Assembly (NCBI RefSeq): GCF_036208045.1
Contig: NZ_CP121472.1
Span: 1,871,531-1,935,530 of the forward strand
Origin: Thiorhodovibrio winogradskyi
GTDB taxonomy: Bacteria > Pseudomonadota > Gammaproteobacteria > Chromatiales > Chromatiaceae
Direction of reading: 5' to 3'
Length of the DNA stretch: 64,000 nucleotides
Position numbers and translations under genes: made by a program. Shown here in pieces: positions 47,530 to 61,442 of this stretch (the stretch's first letter is position 1; each line of letters starts with the position of its first letter). The notes under the pieces are model-generated. The model did no database searches. It worked only from the letters and a program-made list of their open reading frames with translations, and was not told the origin of the DNA.

Positions 47530-47973
47530 GGCGGGCGCTCCGGGACGCGATCAGGCGGCTAAACGACTCTTTGACAGGTGCGTTGGTGACAGGCTGGCGG
47601 GTGGTGTTTGCCACCTGCCTCTTGGTCACCACCTCTTGGTCACCAATGCAGAAGCTTGCCGGCGGCTAAATGGGGCTGTCAAGCCGTTGGCGGAAACCAA
47701 GAATTCGCGTGCCTGGCAGAGGGTCGATGAGCCGCAGCGACCGAAAAGCATTGTCTGGACGTGTCGATTCGGTTAAAGTTCCCGGCCGTATTGAAACCGA
47801 TTCCCCGCCGGCTGCTGACATCAGCAATCGTCTATCGATCGCATCAGGAGAATCGATTTTCGTTTAAGTCAGCGGCCGGCTATCCTTGTTCCGATTCGAT
47901 TCCCAATTTCGATTGTTCGGATTTGAGGCGTCGGCAGGCCGAAGCAGACGCAAACAGACCACAGGAGCTGAGC
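47530..47973 (+). promoter_or_regulatory. Upstream region of the carboxysome operon
   Basis: This 444-base region separates the HNH gene and cbbL. It must hold the operon promoter. TTGTCT at 47751 with TTAAAG 16 bases later is a poor candidate. TCGGTT (47769) and AACCGA (47795) form an inverted repeat just downstream that could bind a CbbR-type regulator. A 14-bp tandem duplication, CCTCTTGGTCACCA, lies at 47618-47645, and its GTCACCAA is repeated in inverted form as TTGGTGAC at 47583. The frame of cbbL is open upstream to 47761, but residues there do not resemble RubisCO. Confidence 0.45.
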
Positions 47974-49389
47974 ATGAGCGTAAAAACCTACGACGCCGGT
48001 GTAAAAGAATACCGGGACATGTACTGGACGCCCGACTACGTCCCTCTCGACACCGACCTTCTCGCCTGCTTCAAGTGCACCGGTCAGCCCGGCGTACCGC
48101 GCGAGGAAGTTGCCGCCGCCGTCGCCGCCGAGTCATCCACCGGCACCTGGAGTACCGTTTGGTCGGAACTGCTGACTGACATGGAATATTACAAGGGTCG
48201 CGCCTACCGCATCGAGGATGTTCCAGGCGATAGCGAATCATTTTATGCCTTTATCGCCTACCCGATCGATCTGTTCGAGGAAGGCTCCATTGTTAACGTG
48301 CTGACCTCGCTGGTCGGTAACGTATTTGGTTTCAAGGCGTTGCGCCACCTGCGCTTGGAAGATATCCGCTTCCCCATCGCCTACGTCAAGACCTGCATGG
48401 GACCGCCCAACGGTATCCAGGTCGAGCGCGACAAAATGAACAAATATGGCCGCCCGCTGCTCGGCGCGACCATCAAGCCGAAGCTCGGTCTCTCGGCCAA
48501 GAACTACGGTCGTGCGGTCTATGAGTGCCTGCGTGGCGGTCTGGACTTCACCAAGGACGACGAGAACGTCAATTCCCAGCCCTTCATGCGCTGGCAGAAC
48601 CGCTTTGAATTCGTCGGCGAGGCCATTCAGTCCGCCCAGCAGGAGACCGGCGAGCGAAAGGGGCATTATCTCAATGTTACCGCCGCCACGCCCGAGGACA
48701 TGTACGAGCGCGCCGAATTCGCCAAGGAATGCGGCGTCCCCATCATCATGCACGACTTCCTGACCGGTGGCTTCACGGCCAATACGGGTCTGGCGCACTG
48801 GTGCCGTAAGAACGGTGTCCTGCTGCACATCCACCGCGCCATGCATGCGGTCATCGACCGCCATCCGAAGCACGGCATCCATTTCCGCGTGTTGGCCAAG
48901 TGCCTGCGCCTCTCTGGCGGTGACCATCTGCATACCGGCACAGTGGTCGGCAAGCTTGAGGGTGACCGTGCCTCCACCCTGGGTTATGTCGACCAGCTGC
49001 GCGAATCCTTCGTGCCCGAGGATCGCTCGCGCGGTATCTTCTTCGATCAGGACTGGGGCTCCATGCCGGGCGTCTTCGCCGTTGCCTCCGGTGGTATCCA
49101 TGTGTGGCACATGCCGGCGCTGGTCACCATTTTTGGCGACGATTCCGTGCTGCAGTTCGGTGGTGGTACTCAGGGTCACCCCTGGGGCAACGCGGCTGGT
49201 GCCGCGGCCAACCGTGTCGCTGTCGAGGCTTGCGTCAAGGCCCGCAACGAGGGCCGCGAGCTGGAGAAAGAATCCCGTGAGATCATGACCGAGGCCGCGC
49301 GTCACAGCCCCGAGCTGGCAATCGCGATGGAGACCTGGAAGGAAATCAAGTTCGAGTTCGATACCGTCGACAAGCTCGATTTGAACTGA
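47974..49389 (+). CDS. cbbL: RubisCO large subunit, form IA
   Basis: CbbL carboxylates ribulose 1,5-bisphosphate. The ATG at 47974 ([20 protein letters not shown]) follows AGGAGCTG and gives 471 residues. The active-site blocks [15 protein letters not shown] and [14 protein letters not shown] are complete, with the carbamylated lysine at 194 and metal ligands Asp196 and Glu197; [12 protein letters not shown] and the C-terminal [15 protein letters not shown] phosphate site also are present. Together with csoS2 downstream this is the carboxysomal subtype. Transcription is presumably under the CbbR-like regulator at the far end of the operon. Confidence 0.98.
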
Positions 49390-49415
49390 TTTTTATCCCC
49401 GGCCCCACCGATGTT

Positions 49416-49467
49416 CAGTGCGCGGGACTCCCTTATTGGCCTCTTGGCCTTGGGTAGCCGCGCACTG
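49416..49467 (+). other. Intercistronic stem-loop between cbbL and cbbS
   Basis: CAGTGCGCGG and CCGCGCACTG are perfect 10-bp inverted repeats with a 32-base loop that contains GGCCTCTTGGCC, itself self-complementary. It starts 27 bases after the cbbL stop. Such hairpins can protect upstream mRNA from 3' decay and so raise CbbL levels; this role is inferred. Confidence 0.6.
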
Positions 49468-49514
49468 GCCGCGAACCCTTAGCCGCTGACCCCATTTTTC
49501 AGAGGATGCAAGCC

Positions 49515-49859
49515 ATGCCTTTCCAGAGCGTTCAAGGCGATTATCAGACCAAACAAACCCTCGAGACTTTCGGTTTTCTGCCACCCCTGACCCAGGACGA
49601 GATCTACGATCAGATCGCTTACATCATCGCCCAAGGCTGGACACCAGCGATCGAGCACGTCCACCCCAGCAACTCCATGAAGGACTACTGGACCATGTGG
49701 AAACTGCCCTTCTTCGGCGAGACCGAACTGGCCAATGTGGTCAATGAGCTTGAGTCCTGCCATCGGGCCTATCCGGATCATCATGTGCGTCTCACCGGAT
49801 ACGACAACTATACCCAGAGCCAGGGCTCCTGCTTCGTGGTCTTCCAGGGACGAGGCTGA
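49515..49859 (+). CDS. cbbS: RubisCO small subunit, form IA
   Basis: CbbS caps the L8 core of form I RubisCO. The ATG at 49515 (MPFQSVQGDYQTKQTLETFG) has AGAGG at a proper distance; the in-frame ATG at 49506 would be too close to it. The 114 residues include QGWTPAIEHVHPSNSMKDYW and WKLPFFGE, and end NYTQSQGSCFVVFQGRG, typical of carboxysomal CbbS. Confidence 0.97.
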   Translation: MPFQSVQGDYQTKQTLETFGFLPPLTQDEIYDQIAYIIAQGWTPAIEHVHPSNSMKDYWTMWKLPFFGETELANVVNELESCHRAYPDHHVRLTGYDNYTQSQGSCFVVFQGRG

Positions 49860-50058
49860 TCCGCCGCGCAGCGGATTGTTCCGGTCTGGTCGGTGGCACG
49901 TGGTGCTAAACCCCTGCCATCGCCGGAACCCGAAGACCGCCGATGTCGATCTCCGCGTACCCGATGTTCGAGCACCTCGCCGGAGGTGTACTGACAACGC
50001 CGGATGAACGCCCGTCGGGGCCTTATTTGAGCCTGACGATTGAATCGAACAGTGGCTC

Positions 50059-50103
50059 CCAAACTGGATCACACACTGGATCTAAAGATGGCTTCCAGTT
50101 TGG
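50059..50103 (+). other. Intercistronic stem-loop between cbbS and csoS2
   Basis: CCAAACTGGA and TCCAGTTTGG form a perfect 10-bp stem with a 25-base loop in the 314-base gap between cbbS and csoS2. The surrounding bases contain repeats of an ACTGGATC unit. It may limit transcription or stabilise the cbbLS part. No gene was supported in the gap although the csoS2 frame is open back to 49943. Confidence 0.55.
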
Positions 50104-50173
50104 ACCAGGGTTTGGTTCAAAGAATGCCTCGAAGAATGCTCTGGAATCGCAGACACAGATAACGGATACCACG

Positions 50174-52849
50174 ATGGCTAGCAAAGCGAACCTGAAAACG
50201 AGCGGTCGCGAGGCCGCACTCGCCCGACGCCGCGCACTCTCCACCGGCGGCAAGTCGAAAGCTCATTCGGCAGCCGCCGAGCGCAGTCGCGGTGATTCAG
50301 CGCGTCAGCGGGCCAATTCTGGTGCCTCCCACTCTGTCGCTCCCTCGGCTGCCCCCGCAGGTGGCGCGCGGCGGCCAGCGGCGCCTGTCGCGGCAACCCC
50401 CGCGGCAATCCCCGCGGCAATCCCGGAACCGAGTTTCGGGTGGTCGCGGCCAACGCAAAACCCGACACCCCGGGCAAGCGGGGCGCGCACCAGGCCGCCA
50501 GCGGGTCGGGCGTCAGTGGCACGCGCCCGGCGCGAAGCCCTGTCGCGACAGGGTCGACGCGCGGTCAAGGCAGGGGATCGGGTGCGCGCTGACGTGCTCG
50601 CGCAACAGTCCGCCGCGCAGCCAAGCAATCCGGCACGAGCAGGGGCATCCGCCGCGCCGAGTCCGCAACAAAGGCATTCGGTCGCTGAGCAGACCCTCGG
50701 GCAACTGTCCGCCAAAGCCGACGTCAAACCTGGCAACGGCAGCGCGCGTATCGGTGCCGGCGCTCGTCTTGGTAGCAAGCCGGGCAATGGCTCGCGCCTT
50801 AGCCGCCGTGACAACGGCCTGGGCACGAAACCAACCGGGCGCATGCTGTCACTCGCCCGCCGCGCGGCTCAGTCCGGGCGCGGCAAGGCGGCCACCAATG
50901 CACCCACGTCCGCGGCCAGTCTGGCGCGCCAGGCCAATCCCAAGCTGTCAGGTCGGGAATTATCCCAGCGGGTGCGGGCGCAGCGCAGTCATAGTGGTGG
51001 CGCGGGTGAGCGCAAATCCGCGCCCGCTGGTCGCATACGGCCCAACGCCACGGCGCGCGGTGCCGAGGATCAGTACTGGAAGGTCGGCGTGAGCGAGACG
51101 GCGGCCGGTCAGACGGTGACCGGCACCCGGGTTGGTCGCAGTGTTAAAACAACGGGTGACGAGCCTAGCACCTGCCGTGCTGTTACTGGTACTGAATACA
51201 TGGGCGCGGATATTTTCCGTGAATTCTGCCACAGCGAGCCGCCGCGCAATGTGCCCAAGGTTGGTGTGAGCCCCTCGGCGCTCGGCAACCGCATCACCGG
51301 TAATGAGGTCGGTCGCTCCAGCCGGGTGACAGGCGACGAACCCGGTAGCTGCGAGCGTGTGACCGGAACCGAGTATCTCTCCCCGGCCCATTTCGAGGCC
51401 TTTTGTGATATTCGTGCCGGATCCGGTTTAAGCGGATCCGATGCGAGCAGAAGCAGCGGCCGTCGCACCGGCTTGACCGCTACGCAGGGCGGGCAGTCGG
51501 TCTCTGGCACCATGGTAGGTCGGCCCTACGTTGGTCATTCGGCGGCTGAAAGTTCGGTTCGGGTCACCGGCGACGAACAGGGCGCCGGCGTCAAAACCAC
51601 GGGCACTCAGTACACCAACGTGCAGAGCATTGCCGAGGGCATTCCAGCACATCAGGGCGGCGGTCGCTCGGCGGTCGCTCCCTCTCAGAGAAATGTTCCG
51701 GCCAAAAAGGCTGTTGCGGAGAGAATGGGTCAGCAGGCCGGATCCAGGGTTCCGCCAAAGGTGGCTGTTTCTTCCACGCTAGCTGGTGGTCGGGTGACTG
51801 GCACACTGGTCGGCCGCTCGGCTCAGGTCACTGGAGACGAGCCTGGCAGTTGTCGCTCGGTGACGGGTGATGAGTACCTCTCCAGCGAGCAGTTCGAGAC
51901 CTTTTGCAACACCCGCCCGGAGCCGGAAGCGTCCAAAGTTGGGGAGTCGCTCACGGCGCTCGGAAAGCGCGTTTCAGGCACTCAGACTGGCCGTTCCGGG
52001 CGGGTGACAGGCGATGAGCCCGGTACTTGCAAGGCGGTGACTGGCACGCCCTACGCCGGCATGGAGCAAGTGGCTGAGTATTGCGCGCCCGCGGCGGCCC
52101 AGGCCGCGCGCGAGCGCATGCTGCCCATGGCGCGACGCGGTGCCGGCATGACCGGCCGTGGGCCTGGTATTGGCGGCGCAATGACGGGTGATCGCCGTGG
52201 TGCCTGTGAACCTCTGACGGGCACGCCTTATCACGGTGCTGATCAACAGGCAGCAGCCTGCGCGGATGGGGGCCCGATGCAGATTGGCGCTGGCGCACTG
52301 GCGGCAACGCCCGATGAGCCCGACTTTCCGCAAGCGCTAACCGGCGCGCCCTGGCAGCAATTCAGTGTGAATTCACCAGCGCGTCAGGCCGATCATCAGC
52401 GTGCGGCTCGCACTGGCGCCGTGACTGGCACTAATAGCGAGGGTGGCGGACGTATTACTGGACCCTTCGGCATGGCGACGGGAAAGATCACTGGCACCGA
52501 GGAGTTTCGCTTCGGCGCCGGCAGTCATGGGCGGCGCGCGGAGGCTAGAGCGGTTGTTCCCGAGGGTAAGCCGGCGACACCAAGCGGTAACCGAGTGACC
52601 GGGGAAGGCCAGTCCGCCGGGCTGAAGATCACTGGTGACGACTGGGAAAGGGGCGAGCGCGTCACTGGAACCGAAGGCGCCTGGGCAAAGGGCCGCAATC
52701 CGACCCGTCCGGGTCCAATGTCGGCCATGCAGCCGCCGGAGCGCAAACGTAACGAGGAGACCCCCGTCCCTGTCAGTCGTGTCACCGGCAGCAGCGGCAG
52801 TACCGACCGCGGCTCGCTGATTACCTACTCTGGCGGAGCTCGCGGCTGA
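50174..52849 (+). CDS. csoS2: Carboxysome assembly scaffold CsoS2
   Basis: CsoS2 is the disordered scaffold that gathers RubisCO and joins it to the shell. From the ATG at 50174 there are 891 residues. The N-terminal region has four RubisCO-binding repeats (about residues 11-28, 112-132, 222-240, 259-281; e.g. GREAALARRRALSTGGKS). The middle region has six repeats of the VTGTxxGRSxxVTGDEPGxC type: about 303-352, 362-411, 432-484, 529-578, 588-637 and a short one at 657-696. The third lacks both cysteines. The C-terminal region ends in the conserved SLITYSGGARG shell anchor. A run AAAAAG after residue 510, between repeats 3 and 4, may be a frameshift site producing a short form, as known in Halothiobacillus. 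Confidence 0.96.
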   Translation: MASKANLKTSGREAALARRRALSTGGKSKAHSAAAERSRGDSARQRANSGASHSVAPSAAPAGGARRPAAPVAATPAAIPAAIPEPSFGWSRPTQNPTPRASGARTRPPAGRASVARARREALSRQGRRAVKAGDRVRADVLAQQSAAQPSNPARAGASAAPSPQQRHSVAEQTLGQLSAKADVKPGNGSARIGAGARLGSKPGNGSRLSRRDNGLGTKPTGRMLSLARRAAQSGRGKAATNAPTSAASLARQANPKLSGRELSQRVRAQRSHSGGAGERKSAPAGRIRPNATARGAEDQYWKVGVSETAAGQTVTGTRVGRSVKTTGDEPSTCRAVTGTEYMGADIFREFCHSEPPRNVPKVGVSPSALGNRITGNEVGRSSRVTGDEPGSCERVTGTEYLSPAHFEAFCDIRAGSGLSGSDASRSSGRRTGLTATQGGQSVSGTMVGRPYVGHSAAESSVRVTGDEQGAGVKTTGTQYTNVQSIAEGIPAHQGGGRSAVAPSQRNVPAKKAVAERMGQQAGSRVPPKVAVSSTLAGGRVTGTLVGRSAQVTGDEPGSCRSVTGDEYLSSEQFETFCNTRPEPEASKVGESLTALGKRVSGTQTGRSGRVTGDEPGTCKAVTGTPYAGMEQVAEYCAPAAAQAARERMLPMARRGAGMTGRGPGIGGAMTGDRRGACEPLTGTPYHGADQQAAACADGGPMQIGAGALAATPDEPDFPQALTGAPWQQFSVNSPARQADHQRAARTGAVTGTNSEGGGRITGPFGMATGKITGTEEFRFGAGSHGRRAEARAVVPEGKPATPSGNRVTGEGQSAGLKITGDDWERGERVTGTEGAWAKGRNPTRPGPMSAMQPPERKRNEETPVPVSRVTGSSGSTDRGSLITYSGGARG

Positions 52850-52886: not shown

Positions 52887-54779
52887 ATGTTAGGTCGCCA
52901 ACGTCAATCGCCGCGTTCGCTCGGGCTTGCCGCTCCAGCAAAGGCTCCCGTTGGCAGGGGATCGGATACGCGGACCAGTCGAAGCATGCGCTCAGGTGAA
53001 AAAACCTCGGCTTTTCGCCCACTATCGGCTGGAGCAGTCTCGGTGGTAGACGCCGACCAACCCAATGGGGATCAAATCTCAGTGGAACAGGCCGGCGCGA
53101 CACCGCGCGGTCGCGCGGCACAGGAAGCGGCCAGACGCGCGGCATCAGCGCGCGAGCGTTCGTCCGTGGCGGTGAAGCGCGCGACAAAGGTGCCTTCGCC
53201 GAGCGTGCGTACAGTGCGAAAACTCAAGACTAGTCAGCGCCCAGCGCCCCCGGGTGGCTTTGCCGGGGCTCGCGGCCGCGGCGCCAGGACGGTCCTGGTG
53301 AGTGATCAGGTGAGTGATCAGGGCACTGATCTGGACAGGCGAGCGCAGCTGTTCAACCAGCGCCTGCACCCGCTCACGGATGCCAGTGCCAATGCGCGTT
53401 TGTTCGACTATGAATCTCGGGTCAAGGAGTCTTTTGATCGCATTGTGCCCGTGCTCAAAGAGGTCGCGGCCATGCAGTGCGAGCCGCGCTTCGAAGAGCG
53501 GGCGCTTGAGTTGATCCGCGCGGAACTGGGTTATGAACTGCCGCGGGAGGAGATCACTAACGCTTGGGTGAGTGGGCTGGACATGCGGCGGCTGTTCGCG
53601 ATGTCGGTGTTCAAGACCTATCGCCGCATCAGCGATGAGTTCTACACCCATGATCCGCTCAGGGGGCGGGATCAGCAAGGATTTGATGCTTTTCTGCAGG
53701 GCTGTGGGTTTCATCTGCTTGATGTCACCCCCTGCGCGGACGGACGCCTGGCCCATGCTATCAGCTATGTGCTGCGTCTGCCCTATGCGGGCGTGCGACG
53801 CAAGTCCTATGCTGGCTCGCTGTTCGATGTCGAGAACACCGTGCAGAAATGGGCCGAGACTGAACTCATGCGCTTCCGCGAGGGGCGCCCAAACACGGCC
53901 GATGCGCCAACCCGATACCTGAAGACGGTCATGTACCACTTCAGCTCGGTTGACCCCTCGCACCAGGGCTGCGCGGCCCATGGTTCCGATGATGAACTGG
54001 CCGCGCGCGCCGGGCTGGAACGCCTGCAGGCTTTCCAGCAGGCGATTGAGAATACCTATTGCTGTGGTGCCTCGGTGGATTTGCTCTTGATTGGTCTGGA
54101 CACGGACACTGACGCTATCCGCGTGCATGTGCCTGACCGCGACAGTCACATCGACCTGACGCGTTGGGTCGATGGCCAGAAGCTCTACGAGATGACACGC
54201 GGCATGGCCCCGGAGCAGGCGCGAGGACATATTTTGGAGCTGGTGCGTGCTCACGCCGCCGAACATTCGCGCGCATGCGGTGGCGAGTCGCCGGCCGAGG
54301 GGATGCTGCGGCTGATCGCGCGACTGATAGAAAACAATATGTCGCAAATTGATTATGTGCGCGTCTACCATCAGGGTGGTTATGCCGACATCGGTCATGC
54401 CGAGCGCTTCATTGGTGCAGGCATCGGTTTCGAGGAAATTCAACTGCGCAACCTGACATATTTTGCCTATCTGGCGACGGTCGAGGAAGGCGCGGCCGAT
54501 ATGGACGTCGGCATCAAGATTTTCTCCGGGCTCAATGTCAGCCGCGGACTGCCAGTGCCGGTGATCGTGCGTTACGACTACCACGGTGGCGTGCCAGGGG
54601 CGCGTGAACGGGCCATTGAACATTGCGAGCGCATCGCCGGCGCGCTCAAGGCGCGCTACCCCAAGCTGTGCGCCGATGGGCTGCTGCACTGTTTGCGTGC
54701 CGTGCGTGACTGCGATGCTGGCGCGCCAATCGAGGTCGTTGGCTGTTCGCTTCAGTCCCAGAGCGCGGCGGCGCACTGA
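52887..54779 (+). CDS. csoSCA: Carboxysomal carbonic anhydrase CsoSCA
   Basis: CsoSCA (CsoS3) turns bicarbonate into CO2 inside the carboxysome. The 630 residues are longer than the roughly 515 of Halothiobacillus because of an N-terminal disordered extension of about 150 residues. The zinc site is visible: Cys283 in PCADGR with the Asp-Arg dyad, His351 in VMYHFSS and Cys362 in SHQGC, the His-Cys spacing matching the Halothiobacillus enzyme. The extension contains RGRAAQEAARRAASARERSS, which resembles a CsoS2 RubisCO-binding repeat. It is 37 bases after csoS2. Confidence 0.95.
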   Translation: MLGRQRQSPRSLGLAAPAKAPVGRGSDTRTSRSMRSGEKTSAFRPLSAGAVSVVDADQPNGDQISVEQAGATPRGRAAQEAARRAASARERSSVAVKRATKVPSPSVRTVRKLKTSQRPAPPGGFAGARGRGARTVLVSDQVSDQGTDLDRRAQLFNQRLHPLTDASANARLFDYESRVKESFDRIVPVLKEVAAMQCEPRFEERALELIRAELGYELPREEITNAWVSGLDMRRLFAMSVFKTYRRISDEFYTHDPLRGRDQQGFDAFLQGCGFHLLDVTPCADGRLAHAISYVLRLPYAGVRRKSYAGSLFDVENTVQKWAETELMRFREGRPNTADAPTRYLKTVMYHFSSVDPSHQGCAAHGSDDELAARAGLERLQAFQQAIENTYCCGASVDLLLIGLDTDTDAIRVHVPDRDSHIDLTRWVDGQKLYEMTRGMAPEQARGHILELVRAHAAEHSRACGGESPAEGMLRLIARLIENNMSQIDYVRVYHQGGYADIGHAERFIGAGIGFEEIQLRNLTYFAYLATVEEGAADMDVGIKIFSGLNVSRGLPVPVIVRYDYHGGVPGARERAIEHCERIAGALKARYPKLCADGLLHCLRAVRDCDAGAPIEVVGCSLQSQSAAAH

Positions 54780-54796: not shown

Positions 54797-55045
54797 ATGA
54801 AAATTTGTCAGGTTCTCAAGCCATTGGTGTCGACCAATCGGATTTCGGGCTTCGAGCACAAGCATCTGCAGGTGGTGCTTGACGGCAGCAGCAAGATGGT
54901 CGCGGTTGACGCGGTTGGAGCCATGCCGGGCGACTGGGTCATTTGCGTTGGCAGTTCGGCGGCGCGCGAGGCTGCTGGCAGCAAGGAATATCCAAGCGAT
55001 CTGACCATCGTCGGTATCATTGATAACTGGCAACCGGAGACCTGA
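54797..55045 (+). CDS. csoS4A: Carboxysome vertex pentamer CsoS4A
   Basis: CsoS4A is a CcmL/EutN-fold protein that closes the twelve vertices of the shell. The 82 residues start MKICQVLKPLVSTNRISGFE and contain VDAVGAMPGDWVICVGSSAA. It lies 17 bases after csoSCA and 29 before csoS4B. A and B are assigned by order in the operon. Confidence 0.95.
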   Translation: MKICQVLKPLVSTNRISGFEHKHLQVVLDGSSKMVAVDAVGAMPGDWVICVGSSAAREAAGSKEYPSDLTIVGIIDNWQPET

Positions 55046-55074
55046 ACCGGCGGCGCGGGTTGGGTGACTGGCGC

Positions 55075-55353
55075 ATGGATATTTTTCAGGTAGTCGGTAC
55101 GCTAGTTTGCACGCTGCGAGTGTCCGGTTTGGACCATTGCAGCCTGCGGGTGTTGCGCGATGCCAAAGGCAAGCTACAGGTCGCGACCGATCCGGTCGGC
55201 GTGCGGCCCGGGAATTGGGTATTCACAGTGAACGGCTCAGCCGGTCGCTATGCGATGGGGGACGCAAAAATTCTGACCGATCTGACCATCGGTGGAATTA
55301 TCGATGACTGGGAAACTGAAGTGATCCCGGTATCGGCGACAGTCGCGTCTTAG
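55075..55353 (+). CDS. csoS4B: Carboxysome vertex pentamer CsoS4B
   Basis: This is the second pentameric vertex protein. The ATG at 55075 (MDIFQVVGTLVCTLRVSGLD) gives 92 residues; an upstream TTG at 55060 is unlikely. DPVGVRPGNWVFTVNGSAGR and LTIGGIIDDWETE align with CsoS4A, which has LTIVGIIDNW at the same place. The two are clear paralogues. Confidence 0.94.
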   Translation: MDIFQVVGTLVCTLRVSGLDHCSLRVLRDAKGKLQVATDPVGVRPGNWVFTVNGSAGRYAMGDAKILTDLTIGGIIDDWETEVIPVSATVAS

Positions 55354-55409: not shown

Positions 55410-55715
55410 ATGGCAGGCGAGAACTACGGTATCGCGCTGGGCATGATCGAGACCCGTGGTCTTGTGCCAGCGATCGAAGCGGCCGATGCGATGACCAAAG
55501 CCGCCGAGGTGCGGCTGATCGGGCGCGAATTTGTTGGCGGTGGCTATGTCACCGTGCTGGTGCGTGGCGAGACCGGCGCTGTAAATGCCGCTGTGCGCGC
55601 CGGCGCGGATGCCTGCGAGCGCGTGGGCGATGGCTTGGTGGCCGCTCACATCATCGCGCGTCCGCACGCGGAGGTGGAGTCGGTTTTGGAGTCGAGCGGG
55701 CAACAACGTCGCTAG
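55410..55715 (+). CDS. csoS1: Carboxysome shell hexamer CsoS1 (first copy)
   Basis: CsoS1 is a BMC-domain protein whose hexamers form the shell facets and pores. The 101 residues start MAGENYGIALGMIETRGLVP and show AVRAGADACERVGDGLVAAH with the family pore motif. It follows csoS4B by 56 bases with a GAGGAG ribosome site. It is identical to the next copy from residue 7 to about 88, though many codons differ. Confidence 0.97.
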   Translation: MAGENYGIALGMIETRGLVPAIEAADAMTKAAEVRLIGREFVGGGYVTVLVRGETGAVNAAVRAGADACERVGDGLVAAHIIARPHAEVESVLESSGQQRR

Positions 55716-55790: not shown

Positions 55791-56096
55791 ATGGCGAACG
55801 AAACCATGGGTATTGCGCTTGGCATGATCGAGACGCGCGGTCTGGTTCCTGCGATTGAGGCGGCGGATGCGATGACCAAGGCGGCGGAAGTGCGTCTGAT
55901 CGGTCGGGAATTCGTTGGTGGCGGCTATGTGACCGTGCTGGTGCGTGGTGAGACCGGCGCCGTGAATGCTGCCGTGCGTGCTGGTGCCGATGCTTGCGAA
56001 CGCGTCGGCGACGGTTTGGTCGCGGCACACATCATTGCACGTCCGCATCGTGAAGTTGAGCCTGTGCTGCCAACTGGCGGACCAGCGGCGTCCTGA
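55791..56096 (+). CDS. csoS1: Carboxysome shell hexamer CsoS1 (second copy)
   Basis: A second BMC hexamer of 101 residues starting MANETMGIALGMIETRGLVP at an ATG preceded by ACGGAG. The protein differs from the first copy only in the first six residues and after the IIARPH segment. Frequent synonymous differences show that the copies are old and kept alike by selection. A third copy (csoS1B) and csoS1D are not in the window. Confidence 0.96.
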   Translation: MANETMGIALGMIETRGLVPAIEAADAMTKAAEVRLIGREFVGGGYVTVLVRGETGAVNAAVRAGADACERVGDGLVAAHIIARPHREVEPVLPTGGPAAS

Positions 56097-56297: not shown

Positions 56298-56777
56298 ATG
56301 ATGCAACAGCCAAGGGTTCACCCCCGCACTCTCGGGTATCTTGGGCGCGCACTGAGTCTGGAGTACTCAGCGGTGCAGCAGTACATGACTCAGGCCAACC
56401 TGGCGGATGTCTGGGGGCTGCGCGAGGCAGCGGATCGTTTTCGTCACGAAACGGTCGAGGAGATGCGCCATGCCGAGCGCATCGTCAAGCGTATGCTGGG
56501 TGTCGGGGTTGTGCCGAACTCCTCGCAGTTGCGCCCAGTCACCCTGGCCGGCAACCTGGTCGGTCTGCTCAGGCAAAATGCGGTGCTTGAGGCCGAGATC
56601 GTTGCGCTCTATGACGAGGCAACCCGGTTTTGTCAAAGTATCGATGACGGTGAAAGTGCCGAGTTTTTTCAGGGATTGCTAAACGACGAAATCGCCCATG
56701 CCGAGGAAGTTGACGCATGGCTGAAAAGCTTAAGCGGATTTGAAACAAAGGGATGGAATGACCGCGCCTACTTCTGA
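56298..56777 (+). CDS. Carboxysome-operon bacterioferritin-like protein
   Basis: The 159-residue protein has the bacterioferritin diiron ligands: Glu22 in SLEYSAVQQY, Glu55 and His58 in EEMRHAERI, Glu98 or Glu100 in LEAEIVALYDEA, and Glu131 and His134 in NDEIAHAEEVDAW. Genes of this kind are a regular member of alpha-carboxysome operons, but the function is not settled. An ATG at 56301 is an alternative start. The end overlaps the next gene by 20 bases. Confidence 0.9.
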   Translation: MMQQPRVHPRTLGYLGRALSLEYSAVQQYMTQANLADVWGLREAADRFRHETVEEMRHAERIVKRMLGVGVVPNSSQLRPVTLAGNLVGLLRQNAVLEAEIVALYDEATRFCQSIDDGESAEFFQGLLNDEIAHAEEVDAWLKSLSGFETKGWNDRAYF

Positions 56778-57078
56778 GACCCGTTTTGAGAATGGTTCTG
56801 GGCGCGAACCCAGTGAGGCTCCGCGTCGAGAGGGCTGGGTCCGGCGGGAACGCCCGATGCGCCTGGAGCGACGACTGGAGTTCCCAGACTATGAGGCGAC
56901 CAGAGTTTTTTTGGAGCGGGCAGGGGGTCTATCCGAGGAAATGGATCTGTACCCAAATCTCAGCTTCGGTCGGACCTACGTGAACATGACGCTATTTGCC
57001 GACGAGAACACAGGCGCGCTGAGCCCCGATGCCCTGGTATTCGCCGGGCGCATTGATCGATTGCTTGATCCGTCCTGA
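56758..57078 (+). CDS. Alpha-carboxysome RubisCO assembly factor (acRAF, pterin dehydratase-like)
   Basis: acRAF is a RubisCO chaperone with a pterin-4a-carbinolamine dehydratase fold. The 106 residues include LERRLEFPDYEATRVFLERA and MDLYPNLSFGRTYVNMTLFA. The His residues used for catalysis in true dehydratases are replaced (YPNLSFG), as expected for acRAF. The ATG at 56758 lies inside the end of the bfr-like gene, indicating coupling. A 115-base gap follows. Confidence 0.88.
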   Translation: MTAPTSETRFENGSGREPSEAPRREGWVRRERPMRLERRLEFPDYEATRVFLERAGGLSEEMDLYPNLSFGRTYVNMTLFADENTGALSPDALVFAGRIDRLLDPS

Positions 57079-57193
57079 ACGATAGTTATCCGACCTTAGC
57101 GCGATCAGGCCTAACGAGCAGGTCGCCATCCTGCGTGAAATCTTGATTCCCTTCCATGCGCGAGCGCAAGCCGCGCCCTGAGAGGTGTTTGCC

Positions 57194-57406
57194 ATGTCCG
57201 AGAACACTGAGACCCCGACTGCCTCGACTGATACATCTGCAAGCAACAGCACGACCAAGGCGGGCGCGGGGAGCGGGCGTCGCAAATCCTCTTCGTCGAC
57301 CCGCGGCACTGGCGTGTCTTCCGGTTCAGTGTCAACCTTGGGTCCGCTGCTCGATCCCATGCGCGAGGATGTTTTCAGTACCAGCACTCGGGTGTGGCCA
57401 GACTGA
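57194..57406 (+). CDS. Small disordered protein, candidate carboxysome-positioning protein McdB
   Basis: The 70-residue product (MSENTETPTASTDTSASNST at the start) is Ser/Thr/Gly-rich and should be disordered. A basic patch GSGRRKSSSSTRGTG lies at about 26-40, and the C terminus ends with DPMREDVFSTSTRVWPD. Family knowledge: proteobacterial alpha-McdB proteins are short, disordered, encoded at the end of cso operons and have an invariant tryptophan at the C terminus. Trp68 and the location fit, so I propose an McdB-like protein. No ParA-type McdA gene is near, which would make it an orphan. Unrelated small proteins with a chance C-terminal Trp cannot be excluded. Confidence 0.5.
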   Translation: MSENTETPTASTDTSASNSTTKAGAGSGRRKSSSSTRGTGVSSGSVSTLGPLLDPMREDVFSTSTRVWPD

Positions 57407-57455
57407 TTTTTCCTTGCGTGCACAATCGCTTGCCAACGGGCTCGTGGCGTCTCTG

Positions 57456-58526
57456 ATGGCGCTAAAATGCACGACCAAAGCTGGGCTGTCGGATCAGGAT
57501 CCGGGGAGCTCGGGTGCCGATTATCTGGTTCGCCACTGCACTCTACGCCAACTCCAGTTGCTCGAGGCCATTGTGCGGCTCGGGAGCTTTACCCGTGCCG
57601 CCGAAGAGCTGTTTCTCACACAGCCGACGGTGTCGATGCAAATCAAAAAGCTCGCGGAATCCATCGGCACACCACTGTTTCATCATGTCGGGCGCACAGT
57701 TGAGCCAACCGACGCTGGACGCGAGGTTTACGCGGCCTGCCGCGACATCCTAAACGGCCTCGCCAACCTTGAAACCAAGCTAGCGGATCTCAAAGGTCTG
57801 CGGCGTGGCCGGTTGCGCTTGGGCGTCATGACGACGGCGACCTATGTCGCGCCGGAGATTCTGGGGGCGTTCTGCCAGCGCTACACCGGCATTGATGTGT
57901 CCCTGAATGTCACCAATCGCGATCAACTTCTCGAGCGGCTCTGTGCTCAGGATGACGATCTCTATGTCATGGGCCAACACCACGACTTCGGGCAAGAGGT
58001 GGAGGCCGTGCCTTTTGCACCCAATCCGCTGGTGATGATCGCGCGTAGCGATCATCCGCTGGTTGGACAGCCCGGGATTCCCATGAGCCGTCTGGCTGAT
58101 GAGGATCTGCTGCTGCGCGAGCCCGGCTCAGGTGTGCGTGATGCGGTTCTCGGGCACTTCGCCAGGTCAGGCGTCGAGCCTCGTGTGCGTATGCAGCTTG
58201 GCAGCAGCGAAACCATCAAGCATGCCATTCTTGGCGGCTTGGGCATCTCGGCACTATCGTTGCACTCGGTGCGGCTCGAAAGCGGCGGTGGGCGCTTCGC
58301 GGTGCTGGATGTGGAGGGTTTCCCTATTCGGCGGCGTTGGCACATCGTCTATTCGCGATCACGCGAGCTGTCGCTGGTTGCGCGGACCTTTCTTGATTTC
58401 GCCATTGCCAGTGAACCCGATATCCGGGCTCAACTCGATGAAGCAATGGCGGCCTTAAGGCGCGTGTCAGGACTCCCCGCAGCCGTGGCAACCTCTTCCG
58501 CTATCCCCACTGGAGTCATCTCATGA
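57456..58526 (+). CDS. cbbR: LysR-type regulator of CO2 fixation (CbbR-like)
   Basis: CbbR-type proteins activate cbb genes in response to metabolites such as RuBP or NADPH. The ATG at 57456 gives 356 residues. The helix-turn-helix is HCTLRQLQLLEAIVRLGSFT, RAAEELFLTQPTVSMQIKKL. The effector domain has GVMTTATYVAPEILGAFCQR and LLREPGSGVRDAVL, typical of CbbR/CmpR. It follows the carboxysome genes in the same direction, whereas cbbR is often divergent from cbbL. Its stop overlaps a start codon of purK (ATGA). Confidence 0.88.
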   Translation: MALKCTTKAGLSDQDPGSSGADYLVRHCTLRQLQLLEAIVRLGSFTRAAEELFLTQPTVSMQIKKLAESIGTPLFHHVGRTVEPTDAGREVYAACRDILNGLANLETKLADLKGLRRGRLRLGVMTTATYVAPEILGAFCQRYTGIDVSLNVTNRDQLLERLCAQDDDLYVMGQHHDFGQEVEAVPFAPNPLVMIARSDHPLVGQPGIPMSRLADEDLLLREPGSGVRDAVLGHFARSGVEPRVRMQLGSSETIKHAILGGLGISALSLHSVRLESGGGRFAVLDVEGFPIRRRWHIVYSRSRELSLVARTFLDFAIASEPDIRAQLDEAMAALRRVSGLPAAVATSSAIPTGVIS

Positions 58527-58534
58527 GGGGCGCC

Positions 58535-59695
58535 ATGGATCAGGATATCTTTCGCTACCCGGTCGCGCGCATTGGCATCATCGGTGGTGGCCAGCTCGGG
58601 CGCATGCTGGTAAAGGCGGCCAAGCAGATTGGCTGTACCTGCACGGTGCTTGATCCCACCCCTAATTCTCCAGCCGGGCAGGTATCAGGGCATCAGATCG
58701 TCGCCAACTATCAAGACGCCGCCGCGCTGCGGGAACTGGCTGAGTCGTGCGATCTGACCACCTTCGATCTTGAAGATATCAATAGCGACATCCTGACCGA
58801 ACTCAGTCGCGAGGGACGGCCCATCTTTCCGCACCCGCGGTTGCTTGCGGTGGTGCAGGACAAGCTGCGCCAAAAAGAGGTGCTTGCCGCGGCTGGTATC
58901 CCGGTGGCGGACTTTCTTGCCATGCCTGAGCCCGATGCCGCGCTCTGCGCTGAATTCGGCTACCCATTGGTGCAAAAGGCCAGACGTGGCGGTTATGACG
59001 GCCGTGGTGTCGCCGTGCTGCGTGGGCCCGGGGAGTTTGACGGTCATTTACCTCTGCCCTCCCTGATCGAGCGCTTTGTGCCAACAATCAAGGAACTTGC
59101 GGTGATGGTCGCGCGTGGGCGAGACGGCGACTGTCGCTGCTATCCGGTGGTGGAAATGCGTGTGCGCCCGGAGCAGAACATCCTTGATTGGCTGCTAGCT
59201 CCCGCGCGGATCGACCCCGGTATCGCGGCGTCGGCCCAGCAGCTAGCGGTGCGCACTGTCCAGGCGCTCGACGGTGTGGGGATTTTTGGCATTGAACTGT
59301 TTCTCGCCGCGAGTGGCGATCTTTTGGTCAACGAAGTGGCACCCCGCACCCATAACTCTGGCCATTACACCATTGAGGCTTGCATGACCGATCAATTCGA
59401 GCAGCATCTGCGTGCCATCGCCGGCTTGCCCCTGGGCGCGACCGATCTGCTGTGTCCAGCGGCCATGGTGAATCTGCTCGGCGCGCCCGGGCACCATGGT
59501 CGCCCGGTGATCAGAGGTCTGCGGGCGGCGCTGGCCATTCCTGGCGTGTCAGTGCATATTTATGGCAAGGCCGCGACCCGTCCCTATCGAAAAATGGGTC
59601 ATGTGACGGTGCTGGATACCGATCTCGAACAGGCACTGCGCAAGGCGAAACGGGTTCGCGAGCTCATCGAGATCACCGGAGAGGATCATCCATGA
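58535..59695 (+). CDS. purK: N5-carboxyaminoimidazole ribonucleotide synthase
   Basis: PurK makes N5-CAIR from AIR, ATP and bicarbonate in purine synthesis. The ATG at 58535 ([20 protein letters not shown]) follows GAGGGG; an ATG at 58523 overlapping the cbbR stop is also possible. The 386 residues show [18 protein letters not shown], the ATP-grasp segment [20 protein letters not shown] and [18 protein letters not shown]. Its stop overlaps purE by 4 bases. Confidence 0.96.
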
Positions 59696-60261
59696 CTGGA
59701 GTTCAGTCAGCCCGGCCGAGAGTCGGCATCATCATGGGCAGCGATTCGGATCTGGCGGTCATGCAGGCCGCGGCGGACTTGCTCGCCGAGTTTGGTATTG
59801 CGTTCGAGCTTACCATCGTCTCCGCGCATCGCACTCCACGGCGCTTGTACGACTACGCGACCACAGCAAGCCAGCGTGGCCTTGAGGTCATTATTGCCGG
59901 TGCCGGCGGAGCAGCCCATCTCCCTGGCATGACTGCCGCCATGACACCGCTGCCGGTCATCGGGGTTCCAGTTAAAACCTCGGTACTCAGTGGACAGGAC
60001 TCGCTACTCTCCATTGTGCAAATGCCTGCTGGCGTGCCGGTGGCGACCGTGGCCATCAATGGCGCGCGCAATGCCGGATTGCTGGCGGCGAAAATGCTTG
60101 GCATCGCGGATTTGGGAATTCGCGCCCAAGTGGAGGAGTTTGCCCGGCGCATGGAAGAGCAAGTTCTTGCCAAGGCCGTCGCGCTCGAAAATGGGGAACT
60201 CGCTCACAGTCGCGCGGCAACCCAGTCATCTACTCCGGCAGATTCGCGGCGGGCAGGCTAG
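59692..60261 (+). CDS. purE: N5-CAIR mutase
   Basis: PurE converts N5-CAIR to CAIR. The 189-residue product carries [36 protein letters not shown] and [18 protein letters not shown], the class I active site. The C-terminal 30 residues are an unconserved tail. The start at 59692 overlaps purK (ATGA), so production is coupled. Confidence 0.96.
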
Positions 60262-60358
60262 AATCCAAAAGCAGATGGGTTGAACGCGGTCTCGTGCTGT
60301 CTGGCCAGCCGGCACTGTTTCACCCCGGGTTTTTTGTAGCGCAGCAGCGGAGATCCAG

Positions 60359-61396
60359 ATGGACATTGCCGAGCTTCTGGCATTCAGCGTAAAAAACAAA
60401 GCATCGGACCTGCACCTGTCCGCGGGTTTGCCGCCGATGATTCGCGTCGATGGCGACATGCGCCGGATCAACGTGGCACCGCTTGAGCATCGCGCTGTTC
60501 ATGGGTTGGTCTACGACATCATGAACGACAAGCAGCGCAAGGACTACGAAGAGTTCCTGGAAACAGACTTTTCCTTTGAGATTCCAGGAGTGGCGCGCTT
60601 TCGTGTCAATGCCTACAACCAGAAGCGCGGGGCCGCGGCCGTGTTCCGCACCATTCCCTCGCAAGTGCTGACGCTCGAGGAGTTGGACGCGCCGGCCATC
60701 TTCAAGGAAATCGTCGAGGTCCCACGTGGGCTGGTTCTGGTCACTGGACCGACGGGTTCAGGTAAGTCGACCACCCTCGCGGCAATGATTGATTATCTCA
60801 ACAAGAATCGCTACGAACATATCCTGACCATTGAGGATCCGATTGAGTTTGTCCACACCAGCCGACGTTGTCTGATCAACCAGCGCGAAGTGCATCGGGA
60901 TACCCTGGGCTTTAGCGAGGCATTGCGTTCGGCCCTGCGTCAGGATCCGGACATTGTTCTGGTTGGCGAAATGCGTGATCTCGAGACCATTCGGCTGGCG
61001 CTGACGGCAGCGGAAACCGGCCACCTGGTGTTTGGCACCCTGCACACCAGTTCGGCGGCCAAGACGATTGACCGTATCGTGGATGTCTTCCCGGCTGCCG
61101 AGAAGACCATGGTGCGTTCCATGCTCTCGGAATCCTTGCGCTCGGTCATCTCCCAGACCTTGCTCAAAAAGCCCAATGGTGGCCGGATTGCAGCCCACGA
61201 GATAATGATTGGCACCCCGGCCATCCGCAACTTGATTCGCGAGGATAAGGTCGCGCAAATGTACTCGGCCATCCAGACCGGTCAAGCCCATGGCATGCAG
61301 ACGCTCGATCAGTGCTTGCAAGAGCTTGTCCGTAAAGGACTGCTCAAAAAGCACGATGCACGTGCGAAAGCCCAGAACAAGGAAAGCTTTAGCTAA
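60359..61396 (+). CDS. pilT: Type IV pilus retraction ATPase PilT
   Basis: PilT drives pilus retraction for twitching motility and DNA uptake. The 345 residues have the N-terminal PAS-like domain (DIAELLAFSVKNKASDLHLS), Walker A GPTGSGKST at 130-138, the Asp box, Walker B DIVLVGEMRD, the His box and the PilT motif AIRNLIRE. pilU does not follow, which is unusual for gammaproteobacteria. The gene has its own CGGAGATCC site. Confidence 0.95.
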   Translation: MDIAELLAFSVKNKASDLHLSAGLPPMIRVDGDMRRINVAPLEHRAVHGLVYDIMNDKQRKDYEEFLETDFSFEIPGVARFRVNAYNQKRGAAAVFRTIPSQVLTLEELDAPAIFKEIVEVPRGLVLVTGPTGSGKSTTLAAMIDYLNKNRYEHILTIEDPIEFVHTSRRCLINQREVHRDTLGFSEALRSALRQDPDIVLVGEMRDLETIRLALTAAETGHLVFGTLHTSSAAKTIDRIVDVFPAAEKTMVRSMLSESLRSVISQTLLKKPNGGRIAAHEIMIGTPAIRNLIREDKVAQMYSAIQTGQAHGMQTLDQCLQELVRKGLLKKHDARAKAQNKESFS

Positions 61397-61442
61397 CCTC
61401 TGGCCAAGGGCCTTGATGCCAGCTGCCTCGATGCCTGCTGGC

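Follow-up and report, generated by a model that had tools for sequence, protein, structure and literature searches.

The McdB proteins of alpha-carboxysomes (alpha-McdBs) span 51-169 residues, share ~15% average identity, and end in R(V/I)WPD, of which WPD is invariant (PMC11321042). In Halothiobacillus neapolitanus McdB, the tryptophan third from the end is required for association with the carboxysome (PMC11321042). McdA binding requires residues 1-20 of this protein, which also suffice for it; non-basic residues in the N-terminus matter too, and carboxysomes stay excluded from the nucleoid when residues 2-20 are deleted (preprint PMC12204374). Type 1 genes lie directly 3' of mcdA and encode an N-terminal McdA-binding region; type 2 proteins are orphaned in the cso operon, are without a charged N-terminus, and occur with mcdAB elsewhere in the genome (PMC8262871). 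Why two kinds are needed is, according to the latter review, still to be determined. A 2026 review describes an McdB lacking both McdA and a charged N-terminus, which it locates at a distance from the cso locus, and leaves the implications open (PMC12918739).

The window analyzed here, a 64,000-nucleotide stretch of the Thiorhodovibrio winogradskyi chromosome, carries an orphan of this kind directly 3' of an alpha-carboxysome operon and on the same strand. The operon, all on the + strand, comprises cbbL and cbbS for Rubisco (47968-49859, recognized from sequence, the cbbL start being approximate), the csoS2 scaffold gene (49943-52849; CsoS2_M, 2.7e-151), csoSCA for the carboxysomal carbonic anhydrase (52887-54779; TIGR02701, 3.7e-197), csoS4A and csoS4B for vertex proteins (54797-55353, from the list of open reading frames and the order in relatives), two csoS1 shell genes (55410-55715 and about 55791-56096; CsoS1 matches, same order in relatives), a ferritin/bacterioferritin-like gene (56298-56777; Ferritin, 3.4e-20), and acRAF, of the pterin-dehydratase fold (56758-57078; Pfam Pterin_4a, 1.4e-6). 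The names csoS1, csoS4A, and csoS4B are ones that we presume from the usual operon order, and acRAF is so called on the assumption that its place in the operon identifies it. The orphan (57194-57406, +) is separated by 115 bp from the end of acRAF and by 49 bp from the likely start of a cbbR-like LysR regulator gene (57456-58526, +), whose best match is NCBIfam NF045990 (CbbR; 1.9e-66, under its cut-off). A ribosome-binding-site-like GAGAGG (57180-57185, +) ends 8 bases 5' of the ATG, and a search of 56700-57700 revealed no promoter- or terminator-like site.

The orphan encodes 70 amino acids, a length inside the published alpha-McdB range (PMC11321042). Serine and threonine make up 28 of the 70 residues, the net charge is 0, and the sole tryptophan is third from the end. 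A basic patch, R29-R30-K31 (57278-57286), has similar counterparts by eye in many relatives. The protein closes with STRVWPD, in which R66-V-W68-P-D70 (57389-57403) equals the consensus R(V/I)WPD and is the putative carboxysome-docking motif (PMC11321042). An earlier note on this DNA had described just such a protein, 70 residues long and rich in Ser/Thr, between acRAF and cbbR, with a basic patch and a tryptophan third from the end; it had added that a ParA-type gene is absent nearby, and all of this held, the genome's 13 PF13614 matches (none in the window) included. Intrinsic disorder is weakly suggested for the orphan: its normalized hydropathy is 0.42, its charge-hydropathy value (+0.016) lies on the boundary, marginally on the folded side, and a low-confidence AlphaFold2 model of the single sequence (mean pLDDT 61, pTM 0.13) contained no helix of four or more residues, N-terminus included. 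Orthologues occupy the same slot in both other genomes of the genus, and all three proteins align to the identical last residue. The three pairwise comparisons gave 36, 33, and 40 codon differences at third positions, 15, 16, and 16 at second positions, and 32, 20, and 17 at first positions. Since same-slot orthologues aligned to the same end show these codon-position differences, the orphan is more than a chance reading frame.

Direct BLAST of the 70 residues against 210 genomes of the window's family gave strong matches in just two genomes, both of the same genus (2.2e-10 and 3.4e-8), the best match outside the genus being 9.7e-5, as expected because the alpha-McdB family is so divergent; no Pfam or NCBIfam family scored above its cut-off. 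Matches at E <= 1 arose in 138 genomes and most were taken as chance, so we switched to the tail pattern combined with gene context. The 210 genomes were searched for the tail pattern, keeping matches with a true stop and dropping those with TGG for the stop, and neighbors were classified with the window's cso proteins and the genome's McdA. Many tail matches outside any cso or mcdA context were discarded, and a reversed-pattern control also matched many genomes; a scan of viral contigs with the orphan protein turned up 131 stretches that fit a pattern, of which 0 were confirmed. The resulting set held 102 McdB rows, 60 of them orphans and 42 adjoining mcdA (16 of the 42 in the cso operon). 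In one genome with McdA (G159), searching with the exact tail pattern missed the paired McdB. Among 59 orphan loci, acRAF was matched at 57 and cbbR at 52; the 60th was added by hand (G178). In the latter (L208 2266-2508, -), a same-genus relative of RVWPD orphans, the tail reads NPVWPD, keeping WPD with the arginine gone. Since other genera show the order acRAF-mcdA-mcdB-cbbR, the orphan sits in the slot of an in-operon mcdAB pair.

Because the tail pattern itself had found the rows, tail conservation was judged on an independent list of 73 family genomes with the unrelated marker CsoSCA_C. In 70 of the 73, the cso locus carried a WPD-tailed reading frame, either by itself or following mcdA, and G147 had one on a contig showing only cbbR (71/73). 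Two genomes, G105 and G120 (2/73 on this list, 2/77 of all cso genomes), had no WPD-tailed frame between acRAF and cbbR; the slot McdB is thus dispensable there. An aromatic residue (F or Y) occupies the place of F61, 7 before the tryptophan, in 41/60 orphans and 36/42 paired McdBs, and may be part of the docking site. F61 ends a second block of the window's protein, G50-PLLDPMREDV-F61 (57341-57376), which takes the form GPALxPxRxDxF in some relatives; a block GPxLxPxRxDxF N-terminal to the tail was seen in orphans of the window's genus and of some related genera.

On its sequence and place, we regard the orphan firmly as a member of the alpha-McdB family. The earlier note had made the same assignment from less, and the full R(V/I)WPD consensus together with the WPD tail at the same place in 71/73 relatives bears it out. 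It had also asked whether the tryptophan is conserved among orthologues, which it is, and whether homologues are confined to places outside cso operons, which they are not, orphans occupying the cso slot. More precisely, the protein is an already described alpha-McdB type 2, which it resembles in its cso location, missing mcdA neighbor, distant mcdAB, weakly charged N-terminus, and WPD tail; no tested feature of it differs. With type 1 and H. neapolitanus McdB it shares the R(V/I)WPD tail, the tryptophan third from the end, small size, and low hydropathy; however, it does not lie directly 3' of mcdA, has no mcdA adjoining it at all, and is without the N-terminal L..SIR..K-type motif described below. 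Orphans have a median length of 70 amino acids, as against 92 for the 40 paired McdBs scored. The beta-McdBs of cyanobacteria share the C-terminal tryptophan and are disordered, as the orphan may be, but, unlike the orphan, have 132-394 residues, a predicted coiled coil, and no WPD tail (PMC8262871, PMC11321042).

The genome of the window is a single contig of 5.48 Mb and contains two R[VI]WPD-stop sites, one in the orphan and the other in McdB-1 of a distal mcdAB pair (G000:C1:483,024-483,925; L071 5025-5926), ~1.44 Mb away. There, the 5' end of the gene for McdB-1 (91 aa) overlaps the 3' end of the gene for McdA, a ParA-type ATPase of 209 aa, which is the only McdA-profile match at E <= 1e-25 in the genome. 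The term orphan used in the earlier note is apt locally, no mcdA adjoining the gene; the search of the whole genome for a McdA-type ParA that it had proposed yielded this one, with its own McdB. Since an orphan in the cso operon is combined with a distant mcdAB pair, the genome has the known alpha-McdAB type 2 arrangement (PMC8262871). Conserved synteny of the distal pair outside the genus was rejected, as 21 of 25 other distal loci had no similar neighbor in their 5-kb flanks; the two same-genus loci share two neighbors with the window's genome, G116 has a single similar one, and G119 a weak 29% match. In the McdA tree, which carries a warning of long branches meeting, 26 distal McdAs fall on one side of one branch (support 98). 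The neighbors of distal mcdAB vary by genus though these McdAs form one group, as if the pair moves around the genome.

Paired McdBs start with a motif like KTERQLIDSIRKAKTG. In its narrow form, L..[STNA][IT]R..K, this motif occurs within the family in 41/42 paired rows (the other one is masked) and 0/60 orphans; a broader form, L..[STGNA][ILVMT]R..[KRQ], occurs in 40/42 paired rows and likewise 0/60 orphans, its misses (G114, G155) being the masked row and a row whose start was placed too far downstream. The narrow form replaced a first, looser motif for which 5/60 orphans were positive. We also scanned named genomes, including Thioalkalivibrio, Thiomonas, Thiobacillus, Hydrogenovibrio, Thiomicrorhabdus, and Acidithiobacillus, with the McdA profile, which gave at least 80 loci; most of the 80 that were kept had no McdB-like frame beside the match. 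Among the matches listed, 18 WPD-tailed frames adjoined McdA; 3 had the narrow and 16 the broader form, and two (L234 and L243) had neither. Judged by these sequences, the narrow motif is family-specific. Of the cso-resident orphans in other families (21 among the matches listed), 20 were retrieved, and none of these had the broader form. By analogy, we infer that the motif corresponds to the McdA-binding helix of H. neapolitanus McdB. The window's orphan is without the motif, and so without the N-terminal McdA-binding region of type 1, and like type 2 has no charged N-terminus; its first 25 residues have a net charge of -2 vs. +3 in McdB-1 of the same genome. Across the family, the net charge of the first 20 residues was <= 0 in 47/60 orphans vs. 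1 of 40 paired McdBs scored (of 42), some starts being uncertain. Phylogenetically independent contrasts for the cso slot in the family had the motif going with mcdA adjacency in 3/3 cases (p 0.25); since there were only 3 such contrasts, significance was out of reach.

In many family members that have the orphan, McdA is not detectable. The gap in McdA-profile scores is clean: 43 of 210 genomes reach 292 bits or more, and the next best stands at 179. Since the first search scored at most 14 candidates per genome, it was repeated on the 33 orphan-only and 2 McdB-less genomes, scoring all candidates in 32 of the 35 and 89 in each of the other three; nothing rose above 179 bits, whereas true McdAs score 292 or more. 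The gene adjoining the 179-bit match was not McdB-like, and at 14 ParA-like loci from McdA-less genomes no listed neighboring frame had a WPD tail. Several partners at those 14 loci resemble, by eye, ribbon-helix-helix partition proteins. The 77 cso genomes thus comprise 26 with an orphan and distal McdA, 33 with an orphan and no McdA found, 15 with an in-operon pair, 1 with a pair plus an orphan in its cso gene sets, and 2 with neither; in the same order, the 55 that are at least 98% complete divide into 20, 26, 7, 0, and 2. Absence of McdA from a draft genome may be a gap; the orphan-only genomes include the single-contig G068, G072, and G100. Type 2 is described in PMC8262871 together with a distant mcdAB, whereas the genomes studied here also include orphans for which no McdA was found. 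In other families, where a looser tail pattern was used ([VI]WPD, no arginine), 66 cso genomes out of 369 drawn across the class included 33 with an in-operon pair and 1 with a pair plus an orphan; among the matches listed, 15 had an orphan and McdA elsewhere, 5 an orphan with no McdA found, 9 McdA without the tail, and 3 neither, the last two counts not being absences. Within this sample, the window's family shows the McdA-less orphan state more often than the other families do.

A quick tree of cso proteins was built for 69 of the 77 genomes, leaving out 8 with short sequence. It calls for a minimum of 6 switches among the three states of the cso slot (pair, orphan, none). McdA presence must switch 11 times on this tree, a figure that drops to 6 when the rows are restricted to the 52 that are at least 98% complete. 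Some orphans retain a trace of the paired form. The N-termini of the G151 and G147 orphans (MTTTERTGDTPVAPPRRTKTA and close) agree with the paired McdB of G186 (MTTKDQTGDKLVASIRRTKAG) at 12/20 residues, and that of the G021 orphan agrees with a paired McdB at 9/20, each reached in 0 of 1000 shuffles; in all three, the leucine of the motif and the residues before its arginine are replaced, mostly by proline. A paired-type N-terminus is still recognizable in the G147, G151, and G021 lineages, which indicates that their orphans descend from paired McdBs. The orphan N-terminus of G152 looks similar to those of G147 and G151 by eye. In the window's orphan no remnant of the paired N-terminus was found, the agreement of 7/20 residues being equalled by 211 of 1000 shuffles.

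What the orphan does is best explained, in our estimate with somewhat better than even probability, by a disordered protein that would dock on the carboxysome and serve an McdA-independent role in condensation or against clumping. The RVWPD tail would dock it on the carboxysome surface, as inferred from Halothiobacillus McdB, and, since the N-terminal motif is absent, it is not expected to recruit McdA or to release it. It might form a multivalent disordered coat that helps condense carboxysome components or stops finished carboxysomes from clumping, with positioning, where present, handled by the separate mcdAB pair. In the window's species, which has such a pair, it may in addition dilute McdB-1 on the carboxysome. 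Since deletion of residues 2-20 leaves carboxysomes excluded from the nucleoid (PMC12204374), the orphan alone should not distribute them; since it is kept in many relatives with no McdA found, it probably has another job at the carboxysome. The wider proposition, that the cso-resident McdBs of the family work without McdA and became stand-alone surface or condensation factors through repeated loss or relocation of mcdA and decay of the N-terminus, we hold more tentatively, at slightly less than an even chance. The earlier note had left open whether such a protein acts alone or pairs with a distant ParA, and the sequences lead us to favor action alone, without McdA. Pairing in trans, in which the orphan would partner the distal McdA or another ParA through a different surface, is disfavored and seems very improbable: an McdA is indeed present in the genome and non-basic N-terminal residues contribute as well (PMC12204374), so that the motif need not be the sole contact, but the distal McdA is already accompanied by a motif-bearing McdB, the motif of the 41 scorable paired McdBs is found in 0/60 orphans, and orphans persist where no McdA is found.

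The co-occurrence of orphan and distal McdA in 26 of the 77 family cso genomes, the window's included, suits another proposal, which we consider possible though unlikely: the orphan, having the same tail as the paired kind, would compete with McdB-1 for docking sites, leave fewer McdA-triggering N-termini on the carboxysome, and so tune spacing vs. clustering. Altered McdA-McdB interaction strength does separate positioning from partitioning in H. neapolitanus (PMC12204374). However, this competition does not account for the 33 genomes in which the orphan occurs but no McdA was found; diluting McdB-1 could still be an added role of the orphan in the window's species. Position in the slot of an in-operon mcdAB pair, recognizably changed N-termini in some lineages, and two genomes with no McdB in the slot are also what would be expected of a vestige, left after mcdA moved or was lost and drifting with little or no function; yet a WPD-tailed protein is at this place in nearly all genomes chosen by the unrelated marker, codon differences within the genus are skewed to third positions, and the orphan is retained in many branches without McdA, so we rate drift as improbable. 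Least credible, to the point of being nearly dismissed, is an unrelated Ser/Thr-rich small protein whose RVWPD end arose by chance: the missing Pfam or NCBIfam family and the weak BLAST matches outside the genus (best 9.7e-5) would fit it, but the same tail recurs in this position both across the family and outside it.

The literature searched gave no account of orphan McdBs in genomes without McdA, though one may be published, e.g., in the original 2021 alpha-McdAB paper, and no paper on McdB in Chromatiaceae; the available portions of PMC10241942 and PMC13052382 are silent on the orphan type. Where an orphan occurs and no McdA is detectable, nature has separated two roles, and such genomes permit a direct test of a motor-less McdB. 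With the N-terminal motif, positioning and stand-alone McdBs can be distinguished from sequence by a simple rule, and the pattern of the motif shows how a ParA partner can uncouple from its ATPase. If the stand-alone reading is true, McdB would primarily be a carboxysome protein and only secondarily a partner of ParA.

Some further features of these loci were observed. No cbbQ, cbbO, or csoS1D was seen in the list of open reading frames directly after the window's operon; 3' of cbbR, purK-, purE-, and pilT-like genes were recognized by eye (58523-61400), and several related genera likewise have a purK match after cbbR. In G044 (L083), an acRAF-mcdA-mcdB group faces a second, oppositely oriented cso set that ends in its own orphan McdB. 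The CsoSCA of the window (52887-54779) has 160 residues ahead of its conserved N-terminal domain, Pfam CsoSCA_N beginning at residue 161 of 630; in the family, the CsoSCA open frame is mostly ~550-650 aa in genera with distal mcdAB and ~500-550 aa in those with an in-operon pair.
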